Below are positions 51,401-61,212 of a stretch of DNA of 64,000 nucleotides, one piece after another; within the stretch, counting starts at the first letter, position 1; each line of letters opens with the position of its first letter. Both the position numbers and the translations under genes were made by a program. The notes beneath the pieces are model-generated. The model ran no database searches, was not told the DNA's origin, and saw only the letters and a list, made by a program, of their open reading frames with translations. This DNA is from Fontisphaera persica (GTDB lineage Bacteria; Verrucomicrobiota; Verrucomicrobiia; Limisphaerales; Fontisphaeraceae): assembly GCF_024832785.1 (NCBI RefSeq), contig NZ_CP116615.1, forward strand, positions 3,906,001-3,970,000, written 5' to 3'.

Positions 51401-53875
51401 TTACTTGTCTTCCGGAATCCGCATGCCGTAGAAGGAGCGGTACACGAAGATTAGCGCGATGATGAAGAGGGTGATGCCGATGCCCAGTTTCAGGCCGGCC
51501 TTGCCACCCTTCTGCATGGCCACGGCGATTTCAGTGGCCAGCAGGCCGAACAGCGTGGTGAACTTGATGATGGGATTCATGGCCACCGAGCTGGTGTCCT
51601 TGAACGGATCGCCCACGGTGTCGCCCACCACGGTGGCGGCGTGGAGGTCGGTGCCCTTCTGGCGGAGGTCCACTTCGACGATTTTCTTGGCGTTGTCCCA
51701 CGCGCCGCCGGCATTGGCCATGAAGATGGCCTGATAGAGGCCGAAGAAGGCGATGGAGATGAGGTAGCCGATGAAGAAGTAGGGGTCAAAGAACGCCAGG
51801 GCCAGCGAGAGGCAGAAGATGGCCACGAAGATGTTGAACATGCCCTTCTGCGCGTAGATGGTGCAGATTTTCACCACTTCCTTGGAGTCCTGAATGGAGG
51901 CCGCCTTGGCGCTCAGGTCCATGTTTTCCTTGATGTACACCACCGCGCGATAGGCGCCGGTGACCACCGCCTGGCAGGAGGCGCCCGTGAACCAGTAAAT
52001 CACCGCGCCACCCATCAGGAAGCCCAGCACCACCTGCGGCTGCACCAGCGAGAGGTTCTTCACCACGTCGCCGAATTCCTTGTCCAGCAGCAGGATGATG
52101 GCAAACAACATGGTCAGCGCGCCCACCACCGCCGTGCCGATGAGCACCGGCTTGGCCGTGGCCTTGAAGGTGTTGCCCGCGCCGTCGTTCTTCTCCAGGT
52201 TGTGCTTGGCCGCCTTGAAGTCGGGCTTGAAGCCAAAGTTTTTCTCGATGTCCTTCTCGATGTTGGGCACCGATTCAATCTGGCTCAGCTCATAGACGGA
52301 CTGGGCGTTGTCGGACACCGGGCCGAAGCTGTCCACGGCGATGGTCACCGGGCCCATGCCCAGGAAGCCGAAGGCCACCAGACCAAACGCGAAGATGGGG
52401 CCGGCGAACTCGATGCCCTTGGGCATGATGGCCAGCAGGTCCTGATTGCCGGCAATCACGGCCGCAATCAGCATCAGCACCAGCATCAGCAAGCCTTCCC
52501 AGAAGGCCGAGAAATTGCCCGCCACAAAGCCGGACAGGATGTTCAGCGAGCTGCCGCCCTGGCGGGAGGCGGTCACGATTTCCTTGGTGTGCCGCGCCTC
52601 GGTGCTGGTGAAAATCTTGGTGAACTCGGGGATCAACGCGCCCGCGGCGGTGCCGCAGGAGATGATCACCGACAGCACCCACCACAAATCGGGCAGCGCC
52701 TTGCCGTCAATGCTGAAGTTGCCCAGCATGAGCTTGCTCACCACGAAGGTCAGCACGATGGAAATCGCCGAGGTCAGCCACACCAGCCAGGTCAGGGGCT
52801 TCTCCGGATGGAAATCCTTGGATTCGCTGTATTTGCTGGTGAAAATGGCGTCATTCACGAAGTAGGCCACCAGCGAGGTGATAATCATCATGATGCGCAT
52901 CACAAAAATCCACGTGATGAGCACCGCGCAGGCCGGGGTCAAGCCGAGGGTCAGCGCCAGGAAGGTAATCAGCGCCACGCCCGTCACGCCGTAGGTCTCG
53001 AAACCGTCCGCCGTCGGCCCCACCGAGTCGCCGGCGTTGTCACCGGTGCAGTCCGCAATGACGCCCGGATTCTTCGGGTCGTCTTCGGGCAGCTTGAAGA
53101 CAATCTTCATCAAGTCGGAGCCGATGTCGGCAATCTTGGTGAAGATGCCGCCGCAGATGCGCAGCGCCGAGGCGCCCAGCGATTCACCAATGGCGAAGCC
53201 GATGAAGCAGGGGCCGGTGAGGTCGGCGGGCAGGAAAATCAAAATGCTGATCATGAAGAACAGCTCCACGGTGATGAGCAGCAGGCCCACGCTCATGCCC
53301 GAGCGCATGGGGATGGCCAGCGGCGCCCACGGCAGCCCGCGCAGGGCGGCAAAGGCCGAGCGGCTGTTGGCCTGCGTGTTGATGCGCATGCCGAACCAGG
53401 CCACGCCGTAGCTGCCCAGGATGCCGAGGATGGAGGCCAGCAGGATGACCACCACCTTGCCCACGCCCATGCCCTTGTGCACCTGGCCGGCGGCGTCCTT
53501 GTGCTCGGTCAGGAAGCCAAAGTAGTAGGCGATGCAGATGCCAATCAGCACCCAGAGGATGGCCAGGAATTTGCCCTGCTGAATCAGATAGCTTTTGCAC
53601 GTCTCCCAGATGATGTTCGAGACGTTGCGCATCGAATCATGCACCGGCAGGGCCTTGGTGCGCTGGTATTGCCAGATGCCAAACACCGCTGCCAGCGCGC
53701 AGACGAGAATGCCGCACAACATCAGCGTGTAGCCGGTGGCGCCTCCCAGGGAGGGGAAGTTCACCGTCCGCAAATCCGGCAGCACCAGTGATGCCTCACT
53801 CGCGGCAGCCGTCGCCGCGCCGAGGCCCGTCAGGACCAATGTCCAAGCCAATTTCTTATTATTAACGTTAATCAT
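51401..53875 (-). CDS. hppA: Membrane-bound proton/sodium pyrophosphatase
   Basis: 824 residues, about 100 or more longer than typical bacterial members, with a signal-like N-terminal segment (residues 1-27). Hydrolyses pyrophosphate to pump H+ or Na+. Substrate-site motifs are intact: GGIFTKIADIGSDLM, PEDDPKNPGVIADCTGDNAGDSVG (three spaced Asp), and C-terminal DTVGDPFKDTSSVAMN. The cation-control motif is GNTFKATAKP with Lys571 where K+-dependent enzymes have Ala, which predicts K+ independence. The PTADGFETYG segment differs from the common type and points to the divergent group for which Na+-regulated H+ pumping has been described; this is inference from memory. Transcribed towards the shared terminator. 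Confidence 0.93.
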   Translation of the reverse strand: MINVNNKKLAWTLVLTGLGAATAAASEASLVLPDLRTVNFPSLGGATGYTLMLCGILVCALAAVFGIWQYQRTKALPVHDSMRNVSNIIWETCKSYLIQQGKFLAILWVLIGICIAYYFGFLTEHKDAAGQVHKGMGVGKVVVILLASILGILGSYGVAWFGMRINTQANSRSAFAALRGLPWAPLAIPMRSGMSVGLLLITVELFFMISILIFLPADLTGPCFIGFAIGESLGASALRICGGIFTKIADIGSDLMKIVFKLPEDDPKNPGVIADCTGDNAGDSVGPTADGFETYGVTGVALITFLALTLGLTPACAVLITWIFVMRIMMIITSLVAYFVNDAIFTSKYSESKDFHPEKPLTWLVWLTSAISIVLTFVVSKLMLGNFSIDGKALPDLWWVLSVIISCGTAAGALIPEFTKIFTSTEARHTKEIVTASRQGGSSLNILSGFVAGNFSAFWEGLLMLVLMLIAAVIAGNQDLLAIMPKGIEFAGPIFAFGLVAFGFLGMGPVTIAVDSFGPVSDNAQSVYELSQIESVPNIEKDIEKNFGFKPDFKAAKHNLEKNDGAGNTFKATAKPVLIGTAVVGALTMLFAIILLLDKEFGDVVKNLSLVQPQVVLGFLMGGAVIYWFTGASCQAVVTGAYRAVVYIKENMDLSAKAASIQDSKEVVKICTIYAQKGMFNIFVAIFCLSLALAFFDPYFFIGYLISIAFFGLYQAIFMANAGGAWDNAKKIVEVDLRQKGTDLHAATVVGDTVGDPFKDTSSVAMNPIIKFTTLFGLLATEIAVAMQKGGKAGLKLGIGITLFIIALIFVYRSFYGMRIPEDK

Positions 53876-53942: not shown

Positions 53943-54057
53943 ACTTTTGCCCTGCCACCCCGGCAAGCCCGGCCCGCGGCGGCCACCGGCCCCCGGGATG
54001 ACGGATTTTTTTATTTTGCGTGCATCGAAGGGCCCCTTTCCCTAAGATGACAGTGTT

Positions 54058-55761
54058 ATGAAACCGCATTCGATGTGGGCAAGGAGCATCTTCGCAACGT
54101 GGCGGTGCGCAGGGTGTTTGTGGTGGTTATCGGGAGTTCTGGGCTTGTTGTGCGCCGCCCCGCGCCCGCCGCTGGTGCCGCAATGGGACCAACACGAGCT
54201 TGTCCTGACCAGCACCAAAAACTACACCAACCCCGTGCAGGAAGCCGCGCTGACGGCCATTTTCGTCTCCCCTCAGGGCGAGCGCCTGCGCGTGCCCGGA
54301 TTCTGGGACGGCGGCCGCACGTGGCGGGTGCGGTTCATGCCGCGCACTCCCGGCCCATGGACCTGGCAAACCGAGTGTACCGATGCCGCCAATCGCGGCT
54401 TGCACGGCGTGGCGGGCCGTTTCATCTGCTCCGCTGCGCGCAGCGCCGGCGGCAGCCGCTTCGCCCAACACGGCCCGATTCGTGTTTCTCCGGATGGGCG
54501 ATATTTGGTGCACGATGACATGACCCCCTTTTTCTGGCTGGCCGATACCGCCTGGAATGGCCCGCTGAGAGCCACGGATGCCGAATGGGAGTATTATGTG
54601 CAAACCCGTGCGCGGCAAAAGTTTACCGCTGTTCAATGGGTCACCACGCAATGGCGCGCCGCCCCTGACGGCAACCGTGAAGGCGAGCTGGCTTACACCG
54701 GCAGGGAGCGCATTGCCGTCAACCCGGCCTTTTTCCAGAAGTTGGACCGCCGCGTGGAGGTCATGCATCGGGCCGGTTTGTTGAGCGTGCCGGTGCTTTT
54801 GTGGGCCATTCAGGGCGGCTCCAATCCGCAAATCAATCCGGGTGTTTCCTTGCCGGAAGACCAGGCCATCCTGCTGGCCCGTTACATGGTGGCTCGCTGG
54901 CAGGCTCGTGCGGTGGTCTGGATACTGAATGGCGACGGCGATTACCGGGGCGAAAAGGCGGCCAGGTGGCAGCGCATTGGGCGGGGGGTGTTTGGCGACA
55001 TTGCCCATGCCCCCGTGACCTGCCATCCCGGCGGGCGCATGTGGGTGCGGCAGGAGTTTATTCAGGAGCCGTGGTATGACCTGGTGGGTTATCAAAGCGG
55101 CCACAATGACCGGGACGACAACCTGCGCTGGATTACCAGCGGCCCGGCGGCCCGGGAATGGCGGCTGCCGCCGTTCAAACCGTTCATCAGTCTGGAAGCG
55201 CCCTATGAGAATCACGTCGGCGGGGCGGCTGGTCCCATGGGGGCCGAGGTGGTCCGCCGGGCGCACTACTGGTCGCTCCTCAACGCCCCCACCGCCGGCA
55301 TCACTTACGGCGGGCACGGCATCTGGGGCTGGGACGATGGGACCCGCCCGCCGGTGGACCATCCCAATACCGGCGTCCCGCTGCCGTGGCGGGAGGCCTT
55401 GATGATGCCCGGCGCCCAGCAGATGACGGTGCTGGCCGACTTTTTCCAGAGCCTTGATTTCTGGCGGCTTCGCCCGGCGCCGGAGGTGCTGGCGTCCCAA
55501 CCGGGGCTGGCACAGCCGCGCCGGTTCATTGCTGCGGCCCGCTCCGAGCGCAACGATTTCATGGTTATTTACGTGCCGGAAGACCGGGTGGTGGAATTGC
55601 AGCTCGCCGCGCTAACCAGCATGAAAGGTTCACCGGTGCTTACCTGGGTCAACCCCCGCAATGGTGAGCGCCGCGCCGCGGTGGCCGTGCTTGGCCCTAC
55701 CACCTGCCAGGTGCCCACCCCCGAACCCGGGGACTGGCTGCTGCTGGTGACAACGCAATAG
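54058..55761 (+). CDS. Secreted apiosidase-like glycoside hydrolase (DUF5060/DUF4038)
   Basis: 567 residues with a signal peptide (about 1-34). N-terminal beta-sandwich of the DUF5060 type (FWDGGRTWRVRFMPRTPGPWTWQTEC), then a TIM barrel of the DUF4038/GH140-like group: FFWLADTAWNGPL, VVWILNGDGDY, YDLVGYQSGHND, PFISLEAPYENH (a likely catalytic Glu), YGGHGIWGWDDG. C-terminal small beta domain (DFMVIYVPEDRVVELQL) like the collagen-binding-type domain seen in this family. GH140 members release apiose from pectin; the exact substrate here is a guess. No Shine-Dalgarno. Confidence 0.88.
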   Translation: MKPHSMWARSIFATWRCAGCLWWLSGVLGLLCAAPRPPLVPQWDQHELVLTSTKNYTNPVQEAALTAIFVSPQGERLRVPGFWDGGRTWRVRFMPRTPGPWTWQTECTDAANRGLHGVAGRFICSAARSAGGSRFAQHGPIRVSPDGRYLVHDDMTPFFWLADTAWNGPLRATDAEWEYYVQTRARQKFTAVQWVTTQWRAAPDGNREGELAYTGRERIAVNPAFFQKLDRRVEVMHRAGLLSVPVLLWAIQGGSNPQINPGVSLPEDQAILLARYMVARWQARAVVWILNGDGDYRGEKAARWQRIGRGVFGDIAHAPVTCHPGGRMWVRQEFIQEPWYDLVGYQSGHNDRDDNLRWITSGPAAREWRLPPFKPFISLEAPYENHVGGAAGPMGAEVVRRAHYWSLLNAPTAGITYGGHGIWGWDDGTRPPVDHPNTGVPLPWREALMMPGAQQMTVLADFFQSLDFWRLRPAPEVLASQPGLAQPRRFIAAARSERNDFMVIYVPEDRVVELQLAALTSMKGSPVLTWVNPRNGERRAAVAVLGPTTCQVPTPEPGDWLLLVTTQ

Positions 55762-55784
55762 AATACCCAGGCTTTACCTATTCT

Positions 55785-55809
55785 CCTCTTTCCCCTTAGC
55801 GGAAAGGGG
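55785..55809. repeat. Hairpin after the apiosidase-like gene
   Basis: CCTCTTTCC (55785-55793) pairs with GGAAAGGGG (55801-55809, one G-U) around a 7-nt loop, 24 nt after the stop. No T-tract follows; possible transcript-end structure. Confidence 0.35.
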
Positions 55810-55956
55810 TGGAATGGAACTGCGGGGGGTGCAGACTACCGCTACGGCCGGCGGTTTGCCTTGCGCTTGCTCCGTGGTGCGCCTCGCCAAGTTCAAAAAT
55901 ATCTAAAGTCCACCTTGCTGTTTTCCGATATCCGACGGTAGATGTCGTGTTTTGTC

Positions 55957-55965
55957 TGATACGAT
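55957..55965 (+). promoter_or_regulatory. Possible extended -10 for the chemoreceptor gene
   Basis: TGATACGAT (TGn plus TACGAT) about 80 nt before ATG 56045, in a relatively AT-rich stretch, without a clear -35. No sigma-54 or flagellar sigma-type element was found. Confidence 0.3.
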
Positions 55966-56044
55966 ATTGGGCAGTCAACATACAGACATCAGCAGGCTGG
56001 AGGCTTTTGCATTCCCAAGCCGCCCCGCCCTATAGCTTAGAAAT

Positions 56045-58549
56045 ATGAAAATTAGTCTTGGCGCCAAGATAGCCGGCGGGTTCGCCGGCGTCGTTCTACT
56101 TGGCCTGCTTGTGGGCGGGCTGGGTTACTACAACCTTTCCCGAACCTCCAAAGCCTTGGAAGACGTGGCCCAGCATCGCATGGTGGCCATGAGAATCCTG
56201 GGGGACCTGACCCACCACGCCGACTCGCTGGAAACGGCTCTGGCGGAGCTGCTCAATCCTGATATTTCCCCGGCGGCCGCCCAGGCCGCCTTTCAGGCGA
56301 TTGCGGAAAGCAGGGTTAAAATAAAAGAGGCCGGGCAGCAGTTTGCCGGCCTGCCGCGCACAAAGGAGGAGGAGCAGTTATGGCAGCAGTGGCAGGCCCA
56401 GAACAAGACCTATGAGCAAGCGCTCGAGGAGTGTCTGGCGCTGGCACAAAAATGGGTGGCGCTGGATTTGGGCAATCCCAACCTGCTCCAGGCGAACATC
56501 AATCGTTTCATCGGGGACCATTACGCGGTGGAAATGAAACTCATGGAACGGATGTATGAGGAGCAAAACTTTACTGGCGGCACAGACCACACCGCCTGCA
56601 ATTTTGGCCAATGGATGGCCACCTATAAATCCACCAATCCCGAAGTGCAGCAAATCCTTGCCGCCGTGGCCCAGCCGCATCAGCAATTTCATGCCGCCGT
56701 GAAACGCATTCTGGCGCTGGTGGAAGCGAAGGATGAAGCCAACGCGCTGAGCGCCCGGGCGTATGAACTGGAGAAAGCGGTCAGCGGCACCCTTGAACAA
56801 TTCACCCGCCTTCAACAAATGGCGGACCAGGCGGTGGGGTTGCAGCGGCAATTGACGGATAATTTCCACAGCCGTTGCCAGCCGGTGCAGGCAGCGGCGC
56901 TGGCTTCGTTGCAGCAATTGCAGCAGCTTGGCCAGAAATTGAGCGGCGAAGCGGCGGCGGCGGCCATCGCCCAGGCCCGGACGGCAAAAATGGTAGCTGT
57001 GGCGGCTCCCCTGCTGGCGTTGGTGGTAGGCGCGTTGCTGGCCTGGGTCATCACTCGCATGGTGACGCAGCCCTTGCGGCAGGGCATGCAACTGGCCACG
57101 CGCATGGCCACCGGCGATTTGACCCAGACGCTGGCCGTGCAGCGTTCCGATGAACTGGGGGCCTGGGCGCAGGCGATGAACTCGATGGTCATTGGGTTGC
57201 GCAAGAGCCTCAAGCAGGTTTCCGAAAACTCCACGGCCGTGGCTGGCACCGCGCAGGAGCTGAGCGCCACCAACCAGCAGGTCAGCGCCAATGCCGAGGA
57301 AACCTCCACCCAGGCGCAGGTGGTGGCCAGCGCCTCCGAGCAGATTAGCAAGAGCGTTTCCACCGTGGCCACCGCCGCCGAGCAGATGAGCGCGAGCATT
57401 CGGGAAATCGCCCGGCAGGCCGTGGATGCCGCCAAGGTGGCCGGGGAGGCGGCGCGCATGGCGCAGGAAACCAACCAGACCATCAGCCGCCTGGGGGCCA
57501 GCAGCGCGGATATTGAAGAAGTCGTGCAGGTCATCAACACCATCGCGGCGCAAACTAATTTGCTGGCGCTTAATGCCACCATTGAGGCCGCTCGCGCCGG
57601 CGAGGCCGGCAAGGGCTTTGCGGTGGTGGCCAACGAGGTGAAGGAGCTGGCGCGCCAGACGGCTCAGGCCACCGAGCAAATCAGCCGCAAAATCAATGCC
57701 ATCCAATCGGATGCCACCGCCTCCGTCCAGGCCATTCAGGGCATCAGCGAGGTCATCCGGAAGATTGACCAGATTCAAACGGTCATTGCCAGCGCTGTGG
57801 AGCAACAGGCCGCCACCACCAATGAAATCACGCGCAATGCCACCGAAGCCGCCCGCGGCAGCCAGGAAATTGCCCGCAACATTGCGGGTGTTTCGCAGGC
57901 GGCGCGCGACACTTCGCAGGCCGTGACCGGTGCGGCGGCCGCCACCATGGAGCTGGCCCGGCTGGCCACCCAGTTGCAGCAGGTCGTGCAGCGCTTCAAA
58001 CTGGATCTGGCCAGCGCCCGCGCCGAAGCCCCGGCCGGCGAGCCGGCCGCCTCCGCTCCCGACCCCGCCACGCCCCGCGCGCTCCTGGTGTGGGATGCCA
58101 AAACCATGGCCACCGGCGTGCCCGAGGTGGACGCGCAACACCAGGAATTGATTGCCCGCCTCAACCGCCTCCACGAGGCCATTCGCCGCTGTGCCGGCCC
58201 CGAGGAAGTGCAGCCCATGCTTCAGTTTTTAGGGGAGTACGCCCAGCGGCACTTTGGCGATGAAGAAGCCGTGATGGAGAAGCGCCGCTGCCCGGCGCAT
58301 CAGGCGAACAAGGCCGCCCACCGGCGGTTTCTGGAGCAATACACGCGGCTGGTGCAGGAGTATGAGCGCAAGGGCGCCAGCCTGACGGTGCTCAATCAAT
58401 TGCGGGAAATGACGGAAAACTGGCTGGTCAATCACATTCTGAAGGTGGATACACAGCTCCGTCATTGCGGCGGCAACGGCTCCTGCCACGTGCAGGGCAA
58501 CGGCCACGGCCATCACCACCCGGAAACGGCGTCAGCGGCCCGCCATTGA
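56045..58549 (+). CDS. Chemoreceptor with extracytoplasmic CZB domain and C-terminal hemerythrin
   Basis: 834 residues. TM1 about 7-29 and TM2 about 316-340 enclose an extracytoplasmic helical domain that contains a CZB zinc signature: His159, Cys185 in CNFGQW, His212 and His216 (HQQFH), matching the published spacing except Val at one hydrophobic position. HAMP about 341-395, then the MCP signalling domain with the tip [25 protein letters not shown]. After a proline/alanine linker a bacteriohemerythrin domain (about 685-805): His699, His736, Glu740, His759, His797, Asp802 are kept, but the seventh ligand position is Asn755, with His752 nearby. A tail [13 protein letters not shown] follows. 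Probably couples metal and oxygen or redox sensing to taxis. No che genes in the window. The stop overlaps the convergent coaX by 18 bp. Confidence 0.93.
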
Positions 58550-59299
58550 CGGGTGGTGCGCCAGCCAGGTCAAGCGCAGCCCCTCGAGCGTCAGGTGGGG
58601 CAGGACCGCCTGGATTTCTGGCAATCCTTTGGCCATGAGGGCCGCGTAACCGCCCGTTGCCACCACCGGCAGGCGGCGGCAGCCCAACTCTTTTTTCAAC
58701 TCGCGGATGAGCTCGCGAATCAGCCCCCGATACCCATGCACGGCGCCAATGCGCATGGCTTCCTTGGTGCTTTTGCCCACGGCCCGCCGGACATCCCGGA
58801 TGGTGATGCGCGGCAACAGCGCGGTTTTTTCGTGCAGGTATTCCGTCATCGCCGCCAGCCCCGGCGCAATGATGCCGCCGATGTAATCGCCCCGGGCGTC
58901 CACCACATCAAAGGTGACGGCGGTGCCAAAATCCACCACCACCACCGGTGCGCCCACCAGCACTTTGGCCGCCAGCGCATTGGCCAGGCGGTCGGCGCCA
59001 ATGGTATGCGGCCGCGGATAGCGTATGCCCACTCCGCGCAGTGTGCGGTGATTCAATTCCAGGACCGCGTTGACCCCGGCCGCCGCCGCCAGGGCGCGCA
59101 TCGCGGGGGTGGCGGCGGGCACCACGCTGCAGACACCAAGGCCCGCGGGCACGTGCCGGCCCAACCAACGGCGCAATGTCCGTTGCGCGGCCGGTTCGCC
59201 CAGGCCGCGGGTGGCCACGTCCATGGCGCGCCGCACCCGCTGCGCATCCGCCAGGCCCAGGTGAGTATGGGTGTTGCCAATGTCGGCCAGTAGAATCAT
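58532..59299 (-). CDS. coaX: Type III pantothenate kinase
   Basis: 255 residues. First step of coenzyme A synthesis by the ASKHA-fold, K+/NH4+-dependent isoform. Motifs: [12 protein letters not shown] near the N-terminus, [37 protein letters not shown], and [12 protein letters not shown]. Start 59299 ([10 protein letters not shown]) is set by the ATP-binding motif. It lies 7 bp after birA in the operon nadC-birA-coaX. Its end overlaps the convergent chemoreceptor gene by 18 bp. Confidence 0.95.
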
Positions 59300-59306
59300 G
59301 GAAAAC

Positions 59307-60302
59307 TCAAGAACCCAGCATGACATCCCCGCCAATGATGCGCTCCAGCCGCCCGCGAGGGTTGCGCAACAGGAGCGCGCCATCATGGTCCAGCCCTTCG
59401 GCGCGGCCTTCGATGCGGCGCTCGCCTTGGAGGATGACCACGCGCTGGCCCAGCGTGCGGCAATGGCGGCTCCATTCCTCGGCTACAGCATCAAAGTGCC
59501 CGGAGGTCACGCGGGCATAATCGGTGTCCAGCTCGCGCAATAGTTCCGCCGCCAGTTCCGGGCGGGGGATGGGCCGGCCGAGGACCTGCCGCAAGGAGGT
59601 GGCCACCCGCCGGAGCTCCGGCGGAAAATCGGCCTCCGCCAGGTTCACATTCACCCCGATGCCGATGATGAGGTATTTGATTTTGTCCAGCTCCGCCCCC
59701 ATTTCGGTGAGGATGCCGGCGGTTTTGCGGCCGTCCAGGAGCAGGTCATTGGGCCATTTGATGTCCGGCTCCAGGCCGGTGACGCGATGAATGGCGCGCC
59801 GCGCGGCGGTGGCGGCGGCAATGGTCAATTGCGTGGCGGATTGCGGCGTGAGCCGCGGGCGCAACACCACCGAAAACCACAGGCCCAGCCCCGGGGGGGA
59901 GGCCCATGCGCGCCCCATCCGGCCGCGGCCGCGGCTTTGTTTTTCGGCAAAGACCACCACGCCCTCCTCCGCGCCGTCGCGTGCGAGGCGGTCGGCCAGG
60001 TCATTGGTGGAATTGGTTTCCTGGAACACCCGGATGTCGCGCCCGATGATGCGGGTGGAGCCCAGACGCGATTTCAAATCATCGCCGTACAGCCGGTCCG
60101 GCGCGCTTAACAGACGGTAGCCGTGATGTGGGCTGGCCTCGATGTCAAAGCCCAGCGCGCGCAAGGCTTCAATGCGCGCCCAGATGGCGGCGCGGGTCAC
60201 CTTCAGGCGCGCGGCCAGGTCGGCGCCTGATACGGAACCTTCCTGCGCCTGGCGCAGGGCGGTCAGGATGGCGGTATCCAGTGCGGAATCACTGCGGCTC
60301 AT
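59307..60302 (-). CDS. birA: Bifunctional biotin-protein ligase / biotin operon repressor
   Basis: 331 residues. An N-terminal winged-helix domain (VSGADLAARLKVTRAAIWARIEALRALGF) is present, so it may also repress transcription. Central ligase domain with GRGRMGRAWASP (biotinyl-5'-AMP loop), KWPNDLLLDGRKTAGIL, and GIGVNVN; a C-terminal SH3-like domain follows. Attaches biotin to acetyl-CoA carboxylase. ATG 60302 (MSRSDSALDTAIL) overlaps the end of nadC by 14 bp, supporting coupled translation. No biotin synthesis gene is in the window. Confidence 0.95.
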   Translation of the reverse strand: MSRSDSALDTAILTALRQAQEGSVSGADLAARLKVTRAAIWARIEALRALGFDIEASPHHGYRLLSAPDRLYGDDLKSRLGSTRIIGRDIRVFQETNSTNDLADRLARDGAEEGVVVFAEKQSRGRGRMGRAWASPPGLGLWFSVVLRPRLTPQSATQLTIAAATAARRAIHRVTGLEPDIKWPNDLLLDGRKTAGILTEMGAELDKIKYLIIGIGVNVNLAEADFPPELRRVATSLRQVLGRPIPRPELAAELLRELDTDYARVTSGHFDAVAEEWSRHCRTLGQRVVILQGERRIEGRAEGLDHDGALLLRNPRGRLERIIGGDVMLGS

Positions 60303-61212
60303 GTTCAGGTCTGGAGACCGGCGCGCGTCGCCGGCTTGCGGGCTGGTTAAACCCCGGCGCCGGGGCAAAGTCAAGCGCCACATCCACCGCTGGCGCGGAG
60401 TGGGTCAAGGCTCCCACACTGATGAAATCCACACCTGTCCGCGCGATGGCGCGCACCGTCCGCAGCGTGACGCCCCCGCTGGCCTCGGTCCGGGCGCGGC
60501 CGGCCACGCGGCGCACGGCCGCCCGCAACTGGCGCGGTGTCATGTTGTCCAGCAAAATGAAATCCACCCCTGCTTCCACGGCTTCCTCCACCTGCGGCAG
60601 GGTGTCGGCCTCCACCTCCACCTTGAGGTGGGGGTAGCGGGCGCGGGCGCGCTGGACGGCGCGCACAATGGGCCGGGGGCCTTCCTGGGCCAGCGCCGCC
60701 AGATGATTGTCCTTGATGAGGACCATGTCATGCAGCCCCAGGCGGTGATTGCTGCCACCGCCGCAGGCCACGGCATATTTCTCGAATAGGCGAAGCCCCG
60801 GAGTGGTCTTGCGGGTGTCCAGAATTTGCGCGCCGGTGCCGCGCACGGCCTTGACGAAGGCCGCGGTGAGCGTGGCAATGCCGCTGAGGCGCTGGACGAA
60901 GTTGAGGGCCACCCGCTCGGCGGTGAGCAGCGCCCGCGCCGGGCCGGTAATCTCCATGAGTACCGCGCCGCGTTTCACCGCCTGGCCATCGCGGGCGTGG
61001 CATTGGATGCGCATCCCCCGGTGCTGGCTTTGAAAAGCCAGCCGGGCCGCCTCCAGCCCGCACACCACCAGCGGCTGCCGCGCCTTCATCCAGGCCCGGG
61101 CCTGCAACGCGGGAGGCACCACCGCCAGGGAGGTCACATCGCCCGGGCCTACATCCTCTTCCAGCGCGCGGCGCACGGCTTCGCGCCAGACTTTTTCCGG
61201 CACCTGTCGCAT
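60289..61212 (-). CDS. nadC: Nicotinate-nucleotide pyrophosphorylase (quinolinate phosphoribosyltransferase)
   Basis: 307 residues. Makes nicotinate mononucleotide from quinolinate and PRPP in NAD synthesis. Motifs: EEDVGPGDVTS at the N-terminus, LNFVQRLSGIATLT, ILDTRKTTPGLR, CGGGSNHRLGLHDMVLIKDNH, EVEADTL, and ISVGALTHS. Starts the nadC-birA-coaX operon, a cofactor cluster. About 30 extra basic/proline-rich residues at the C-terminus overlap birA. nadA and nadB are not visible. Confidence 0.96.
   Translation of the reverse strand: MRQVPEKVWREAVRRALEEDVGPGDVTSLAVVPPALQARAWMKARQPLVVCGLEAARLAFQSQHRGMRIQCHARDGQAVKRGAVLMEITGPARALLTAERVALNFVQRLSGIATLTAAFVKAVRGTGAQILDTRKTTPGLRLFEKYAVACGGGSNHRLGLHDMVLIKDNHLAALAQEGPRPIVRAVQRARARYPHLKVEVEADTLPQVEEAVEAGVDFILLDNMTPRQLRAAVRRVAGRARTEASGGVTLRTVRAIARTGVDFISVGALTHSAPAVDVALDFAPAPGFNQPASRRRAPVSRPEHEPQ

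Follow-up and report, generated by a model that had tools for sequence, protein, structure and literature searches.

In a 64,000-nucleotide stretch of the genome of Fontisphaera persica, a member of the Verrucomicrobiota (NCBI RefSeq assembly GCF_024832785.1, contig NZ_CP116615.1, positions 3,906,001 to 3,970,000 of the forward strand; "the window" denotes this whole stretch), one gene encodes an 834-residue chemoreceptor that is predicted to carry a zinc-binding CZB module on an extracytoplasmic four-helix bundle (4HB) and, at its cytoplasmic C-terminal end, a hemerythrin-fold domain in which asparagine (Asn755) replaces one of the seven canonical diiron ligands. A sequence-only reading of the same DNA had recognized both domains; the missing iron ligand had gone unnoticed there. 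The receptor architecture is close to certain, whereas its metals, its signals and the sign of its response are matters that we infer. We give an even chance to the reading that the receptor reports oxidising or oxygen conditions to a chemotaxis array twice, i.e., through the occupancy of a zinc site outside the cell and through a modified metal/thiol site inside.

The frame runs without an internal stop, which rules out a pseudogene or a frame error, and Pfam recognizes in it, in this order, 4HB_MCP_1 (residues 4–136, E 2.6e-15), CZB, HAMP, MCPsignal and Hemerythrin, all with scores over the curated thresholds. For the two domains named in the sequence-only reading, the profile searches gave 33.9 bits against a cut-off of 29.4 for CZB (residues 169–223; 38 bits in a genome-wide profile search) and 39.1 bits against 25.3 for hemerythrin (PF01814, residues 691–803); the NCBIfam hemerythrin models TIGR02481 (106.9 bits against 51.75) and NF033749 (94.3 against 84) were also passed. 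Hydropathy reveals only two hydrophobic stretches in the whole protein, at about residues 9–28 and at 316–338, and with these transmembrane segments (TM1 and TM2), a periplasmic sensor between them, a HAMP domain and a signalling domain, the protein has the make-up of a two-TM methyl-accepting chemotaxis protein (MCP). From hydropathy and domain order, which were used in place of a dedicated topology program, residues 30–315 are predicted to be extracytoplasmic and everything past TM2 to be cytoplasmic. Because the CZB module is sited between TM1 and TM2, ahead of the HAMP and MCP domains, it would lie outside the membrane, which is also where residues 159–216 had been expected; a cytoplasmic CZB was considered and is ruled out by this topology.

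The 3His/1Cys ligand set of CZB domains is complete in the outer sensor (His159, Cys185, His212 and His216). These residues, in the form His159, Cys185-N-F-G-Q-W and His212-x3-His216, stand between TM1 and TM2 as had been claimed; their codons were checked and their conservation in the family goes beyond chance. His159 was placed by the family alignment, the Pfam match beginning only at profile position 11. Among 15 aligned sensors, including the one described here, Cys185, His212 and His216 are invariant and His159 is kept in 14; of 18 positions that are invariant or nearly so, 15 belong to the CZB module and three to TM1/4HB. All six checked motif residues are kept in 46 of 57 sensors, a set that leaves out rows shorter than 270 residues and overlapping copies of the window's own gene. 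Over the same set, His159 and Cys185 are both kept in 50 sensors and both lost in six, Cys185 alone is kept in one and His159 alone in none, a pattern of common loss that would be expected of a metal site. The six sensors lacking both residues (L142, L145, L147, L150, L159 and L169), all from the phylum of Desulfovibrio sp. UBA6079 (hereafter the Desulfovibrio phylum), are likely zinc-free members of the family, from which the behaviour of the sensor in the absence of zinc might be learned. They include two pairs of sister rows on the sensor tree, L145/L147 and L159/L169, so that there are about four losses.

An AlphaFold2 (AF2) model of the sensor, built from the 15 aligned sequences, is of high predicted quality (predicted local distance difference test, pLDDT, 92.8; predicted template modelling score, pTM, 0.79) and shows two storeys, i.e., a membrane-proximal bundle formed by the first helices together with the end of the last helix, and a distal CZB module. 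The distal module (model residues 142..260) fits the CZB domain of DgcZ (3T9O, chain B) with a Z score of 14.7 and a root-mean-square deviation of 2.2 over 116 residues, and His159 falls on DgcZ His22 by the offset of this match; His79 and His83 we take to be further ligands of DgcZ. A phmmer search of the CZB segment against solved chains gave weak matches only (best E 0.58). The proximal bundle resembles the 4HB domains of chemoreceptors (9kup, Z 18.3; Tsr, Z 14.4). Its closest structural matches being ligand-binding 4HB domains, the lower storey might bind an organic ligand in the manner of Tar, Tsr or MCP2201, with the zinc of the CZB module being only structural; we hold this to be very improbable, considering that the conserved positions of the sensor are concentrated in the CZB module and not in TM1/4HB.

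Periplasmic CZB domains are known in kind. Perkins et al. (2021; PMC8262984) classed 384 CZBs as putatively periplasmic, which is about 3.9% of the set that they studied, and the present receptor, with its CZB module in the N-terminal region between the two TM segments, fits that subgroup of membrane receptors; hemerythrin is never named in the main text of that study. The residue following the motif cysteine is asparagine here, whereas alanine or poor conservation is reported there (PMC8262984). The ligand pattern is also alike in the CZB domains of DgcZ (fold match to 3T9O) and of TlpD/McpA, which, however, are cytosolic, while the present module would sit outside the membrane atop a 4HB.

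A scan of a contig collection with the sensor alignment returned 17 loci, from Ozemobacter, Desulfovibrio relatives, Bacteroidales, Spirochaetes, Lentisphaerae, Opitutaceae and others. The frames of these 17 loci, several of which are cut or broken, showed no hemerythrin; its absence says little in L036, L041 and L042, which are cut by contig ends, and in L016/L045, L018 and L037, which look frame-broken. L016 and L045 hold the same protein, as do L028 and L036. The copies in L016/L045 and L018, from two genomes, are 4HB-CZB receptors that have seemingly been broken by frame changes. Within the phylum of F. persica, 15 of 387 genomes have a CZB match, and five of these 15 (G000, G162, G169, G181 and the frame-broken G334) encode a 4HB-CZB sensor of this type. 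Judged by sequence, the periplasmic CZB receptor is thus real but already known in kind, and its sensor type spans several phyla. In the same searches, tandem CZB modules were seen in the N-terminal part of Verrucomicrobiota MCPs (L006, L007, L009, L010, L013 and L019; loci L020, L022–L025, L027 and L029 go with this set), spaced about 90–110 residues apart and, by eye, located between two TM segments; each protein has two modules, with three in L009.

The inner domain departs from the canonical hemerythrin. The canonical ligand motif is H-HxxxE-HxxxH-HxxxxD (PMC9388753); aligned to DcrH (2avk), the present domain reads H699 - H736xxxE740 - N755xxxH759 - H797xxxxD802 and retains six of the seven diiron ligands, so that the canonical seven-ligand oxygen-binding site is incomplete. 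The likeness to DcrH of Desulfovibrio vulgaris claimed by the sequence-only reading holds for the domain order: both proteins have a periplasmic region between two TM segments, followed by HAMP, MCP and a C-terminal cytoplasmic hemerythrin domain (PMC9388753), the latter aligning to residues 688–804, and here the domain is followed, past the MCP tip, by a tail with the HGHHH motif (821–825) that had been described. The composition of the site differs. In contrast to DcrH, the present receptor has Asn755 together with Cys749 and Cys808, and its periplasmic sensor is a 4HB-CZB; since Asn755 takes the place of a histidine of the HxxxH pair, oxygen binding as in DcrH is unsupported as it was stated.

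Asn755 characterizes a little-known, cysteine-bearing branch of hemerythrin domains. In 107 distinct domains, position 755 is occupied by His in 81, Asn in 16 and Gln in ten, while the other six canonical ligands are kept in 106. These domains were sampled by a number of searches, some of which targeted the Asn/Cys type, and do not amount to a census; copies of the own gene (L001, L051, L064 and L215), fragments below 100 residues and rows gapped at the checked columns had been left out. All 16 Asn755 rows, coming from 12 genomes of Verrucomicrobiota only, carry Cys749, a residue found elsewhere only in two Cys/Gln rows of genome G283, and 14 of the 16 have a cysteine 4–8 residues past Asp802, as compared to seven of the 91 others. 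In the Desulfovibrio phylum, a search with an Asn/Cys-type profile matched 141 of 345 genomes at E 1e-20; in the 33 rows obtained from 29 of the 30 loci fetched, Asn755 occurred in none and Gln in one. An alignment of eleven domains selected for Asn755 has Cys749 in all and Cys808 in ten, with the others 31–46% identical to the F. persica domain, which on the hemerythrin tree lies inside a group of eleven Verrucomicrobiota domains (support 98/95). When the two trait columns were masked, the 16 Asn rows fell on one side of a branch in the 107-row tree, with a support of only 78. A gap in bit score that set nine high scorers apart is not independent evidence, as eight of the nine were rows of the search profile; four further Asn/Cys domains (L219, L220, L239 and L240) scored only 108–119 bits, just above the His/Gln ones (≤106.9).

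His752 was considered as a substitute for the lost ligand and discarded as a family feature, since another histidine is present there only in L103, while the position is mostly taken by residues such as Ala or Leu in the remaining relatives; in the F. persica protein specifically, it may still act as a stand-in. The HGHHH motif, too, is not common to the relatives aligned or tabulated, Cys808 being the more conserved part of the tail.

Asn755 could be read as harmless. The receptor would then be a DcrH-like oxygen receptor whose diiron site binds O2 in spite of the exchange, with the asparagine or water completing the shell and the CZB module as a second, minor input, which comes near to what the sequence-only reading had proposed. 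The best solved relatives of the domain are indeed DcrH and bacteriohemerythrin, six of the seven ligands are kept, and the ten domains with Gln755 indicate that the position tolerates change. However, a canonical iron ligand is missing, where the ligands are reported to be completely conserved in characterized bacterial hemerythrin sensors except for P1B-5 ATPases (PMC9388753), and the invariable company of Cys749, which apart from the 16 Asn755 rows is limited to the two Cys/Gln rows, argues for a site that is changed rather than relaxed. We therefore consider an oxygen receptor of the DcrH kind unlikely. Hemerythrin ligand variants had earlier been noted as uncharacterised (PMC4919030), and no open-licence paper on cysteine or asparagine ligands in bacterial hemerythrins was found.

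Table 1. Features of the receptor gene; positions refer to the window.
Feature	Residues	Position	Strand	Basis
Chemoreceptor gene, 834 residues (4HB-CZB sensor, HAMP, MCP, hemerythrin-fold domain, His/Cys tail)		56045..58549	+	ATG start, open frame, Pfam and NCBIfam
TM1	~9–28	56069..56128	+	hydropathy; inside first helix of AF2 model
First three helices of membrane-proximal, Tar/Tsr-like four-helix bundle	~29–140	56129..56464	+	Pfam 4HB_MCP_1, AF2 model, fold matches
Membrane-distal CZB module	~144–262	56474..56830	+	Pfam CZB 169–223; fold match to DgcZ CZB 3t9o_B
Predicted zinc ligand His159	159	56519..56521	+	14/15 aligned sensors; codon checked
Predicted zinc ligand Cys185 (CNFGQW)	185	56597..56599	+	15/15 aligned sensors; codon checked
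Predicted zinc ligands His212-x3-His216	212–216	56678..56692	+	15/15 aligned sensors; codons checked
Lower half of long last helix, fourth helix of proximal bundle	~263–315	56831..56989	+	AF2 model, helix 229–318
TM2	~316–338	56990..57058	+	hydropathy
HAMP	336–386	57050..57202	+	Pfam
MCP signalling domain	458–621	57416..57907	+	Pfam
Hemerythrin-fold domain	683–805	58091..58459	+	TIGR02481; alignment to DcrH 2avk
Cys749 (Tyr usual there)	749	58289..58291	+	present in all 16 Asn755 rows of 107
Asn755 (AAC) in place of first His of HxxxH	755	58307..58309	+	DcrH alignment, domain table, codon
C-terminal tail with Cys808, Cys814 and HGHHH (821–825)	806–834	58460..58546	+	sequence

The joining of a CZB sensor and a hemerythrin in one receptor, which the sequence-only reading had thought possibly undescribed, is not unique to F. 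persica. In the Desulfovibrio phylum, at least 48 of 345 genomes match the sensor profile (E ≤1e-20), and among the matches listed, we count at least 49 full-length ones in at least 31 genomes; these counts are lower bounds, as the scan scored at most six candidates per genome. Five of the at least 49 full-length matches, from four genomes, also have a C-terminal hemerythrin domain (L152, L153, L154, L164 and L158, the last being the same as L141). All five are matched by the Pfam models 4HB_MCP_1, CZB, MCPsignal and Hemerythrin, the CZB score of L154 being below its cut-off, so that their domain order is that of the present receptor and a unique combination is ruled out. Where the F. persica hemerythrin has Asn755 and Cys749, theirs carry His and either Tyr or Phe, respectively. 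The zinc ligand set is intact in all six hemerythrin-fused sensors, the own one included. Hemerythrin was not seen in 36 of the 41 Desulfovibrio-phylum matches examined, at least four of which (L124, L128, L142 and L171) are short or cut frames; the remaining eight of the 49 (open frames of at most 690 residues) lay outside the frame inspection. Six other MCP-hemerythrin proteins of the own phylum, from four genomes, have no CZB motif in frame, as judged from the long frames. In the open-licence literature, no description of a receptor combining CZB and hemerythrin was found, and passages of papers that name both treat the two domains apart.

On the sensor tree, where the own sensor sits on a long branch without a resolved place, four changes of the label "hemerythrin" have to be assumed, a number that the starred branches by themselves already require (quick method). 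The six fused domains also fall apart on the hemerythrin tree, again with four changes needed. A single clade of the six fused hemerythrins was marginally rejected by the approximately unbiased (AU) test (p 0.046; the clade was named after being seen), and a group of the Asn/Cys rows with the five other fused rows was not rejected (AU p 0.253). On this sequence evidence, it is less likely that the fusions of sensor and hemerythrin all go back to one event, and repeated joining of the two domains is the simplest reading, though unproven.

Given that the sensor so often occurs alone, the protein might be a periplasmic receptor for zinc or another metal only, with the hemerythrin-fold domain as a degenerate or structural tail, perhaps an iron store for other uses. 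This is consistent with zinc ligands that are intact here and, in the family, are largely lost as a set, and with the hemerythrin-free sensors in 36 of the 41 Desulfovibrio-phylum matches (some short or cut) and in all 17 loci of the contig collection (several cut or broken). It is at odds with the inner domain itself, considering that a decaying site should scatter, whereas the Asn755 rows lie on one side of a branch and keep Cys749 (16/16) and the tail cysteine (14/16) at identities of at most 46% to the F. persica domain. Furthermore, the sensor has seemingly acquired a hemerythrin domain on more than one occasion. We rate a purely periplasmic metal receptor as improbable.

The preferred reading, i.e., a twofold report of oxidising or oxygen conditions, would work as follows. 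Zinc occupancy of the CZB module would set the packing of the periplasmic bundle, and this signal would travel through TM2 and HAMP to the tip that controls the kinase. In oxidising surroundings, the site would lose its zinc, either because soluble zinc declines or because Cys185 is oxidised. On the inside, the hemerythrin-fold domain would respond to the redox state of its iron, of the Cys749/Cys808 thiols, or of both, and would bias the common signalling hairpin, acting on it from the C-terminal side. The two inputs would thus be summed on one MCP hairpin and sent to the chemotaxis cluster of the genome, with no prediction made as to the swimming direction. Concerning the outer step, the zinc-binding cysteine of CZB domains reacts with hypochlorous acid (HOCl) and zinc loss alters the output (PMC8262984), and in a 2026 preprint, the CZB receptor McpA is described to read soluble zinc as a proxy for redox conditions and to mediate attraction to O2 (PMC13370339). 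Concerning the inner step, two bacterial hemerythrin enzymes respond to the redox state of their iron (PMC9388753). By analogy, zinc or HOCl outside and redox state inside, the signals proposed in the sequence-only reading, are reasonable candidates.

For the inner domain, a more specific proposal is that it is a non-oxygen-binding, receptor-linked member of the Verrucomicrobiota branch that acts as a mixed iron/thiol or thiol-gated redox switch, an idea we regard as doubtful. A diiron histidine would have been traded for asparagine, with Cys749 (near the start of helix C) and Cys808 (past the last ligand) beside it. If this were true, the receptor would read redox conditions outside with a zinc-thiolate site and inside with an iron/thiol site.

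The output side is suggested by the genome of F. persica (4.7 Mb, single contig), in which three MCP and three flagellin matches were found. Its che cluster encodes CheA (with two CheW stretches), CheW, CheB, CheR, response regulators and two MCPs, and adjoins the genes for a flagellar rod protein, FliE, FliF and FliG. Residues 304–654 are 65.5% identical over 351 columns to L002, an MCP beside the che genes, and 59.9% identical over 347 columns to the other MCP; owing to this high identity of the signalling region, the receptor probably joins the same arrays as the MCPs of the che cluster. Within the host genome, CZB and PF01814 are each matched once, both times in this receptor.

Several points weigh against the twofold report. 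The gene is about 1.05 Mb away from the che cluster. Asn755 may abolish a working diiron site and leave the inner sensor mute, and the actual stimulus of the 4HB part could be a small molecule. As to the fold of the sensor, Foldseek gave no match at E ≤0.001, the best being PilJ (0.011), with 3t9o_B at 0.03, and a designed, unrelated helical bundle also scored a Z of 14.4 against the model. Helical-bundle fold matches taken alone are, hence, weak evidence, and they carry weight here because the Pfam match and the zinc motif agree with them. PilJ, McpS and TorS, which came first in Foldseek at E 0.011 or weaker, likewise have stacked helical bundles between TM segments, and to our knowledge their upper storey has no CZB zinc motif. 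Regarding the inner site, Cys749 changes only twice on the tree; its co-occurrence with Asn755 is, therefore, not phylogenetically independent, the pair test has no power, and Fisher p values are inflated by common descent. A single-sequence AF2 model of residues 676–834 was poor (pLDDT 54.2) and was used neither for folds nor for contacts. We infer that Cys749, Asn755 and Cys808 lie close together from their co-occurrence and from the helix order, helix C presumably beginning near residues 749–755 with the last helix running antiparallel to it.

Beyond the F. persica receptor, one other MCP, L101/L172, was found to carry an Asn/Cys hemerythrin, its frame containing a run of X. In genome G396 (L180, 1942–3574), a stand-alone Asn/Cys hemerythrin gene stands beside a short MCP gene (344 residues), hinting at the same pairing in trans; apart from this MCP, the neighbours of eight stand-alone Asn/Cys hemerythrin genes (seven loci, 14 open reading frames) revealed no common function. 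Genome G283 has three adjacent receptors (L085, 4410–11118), the first being an MCP with CLMCH, a CxxCH heme-like motif, before TM2 and a C-terminal CZB, and the other two being MCP-hemerythrin proteins with Cys749/Gln755 and a pair of tail cysteines; L021 of the same genome likewise combines CxxCH (CIECH) with CZB.

The neighbours of the receptor gene in the window look unrelated, comprising what we take to be a proton pyrophosphatase, a glycoside-hydrolase-like protein, coaX, birA and nadC. The promoter scan gave no sigma-70-like site (0.6 expected), and Rfam found nothing in 54000–60500. Long antisense frames opposite real genes at 56378–58174 (598 residues) and 51641–53791 (716 residues) look like products of G+C-rich codon use and not like genes.

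That a 4HB-CZB sensor is joined to hemerythrin in phyla far apart from each other suggests that the occupancy of the outer zinc site and the inner iron site convey related information. This is relevant to the proposal, made in 2026, of a zinc-based reading of redox conditions by CZB domains (PMC13370339). Given that the periplasmic CZB and the fused layout already occur elsewhere, the Asn/Cys hemerythrin branch, seen in 12 genomes, is the part most worth following: it is a natural change of the diiron site, by which it may be tested whether such a sensor needs O2 binding, iron redox chemistry, or neither.

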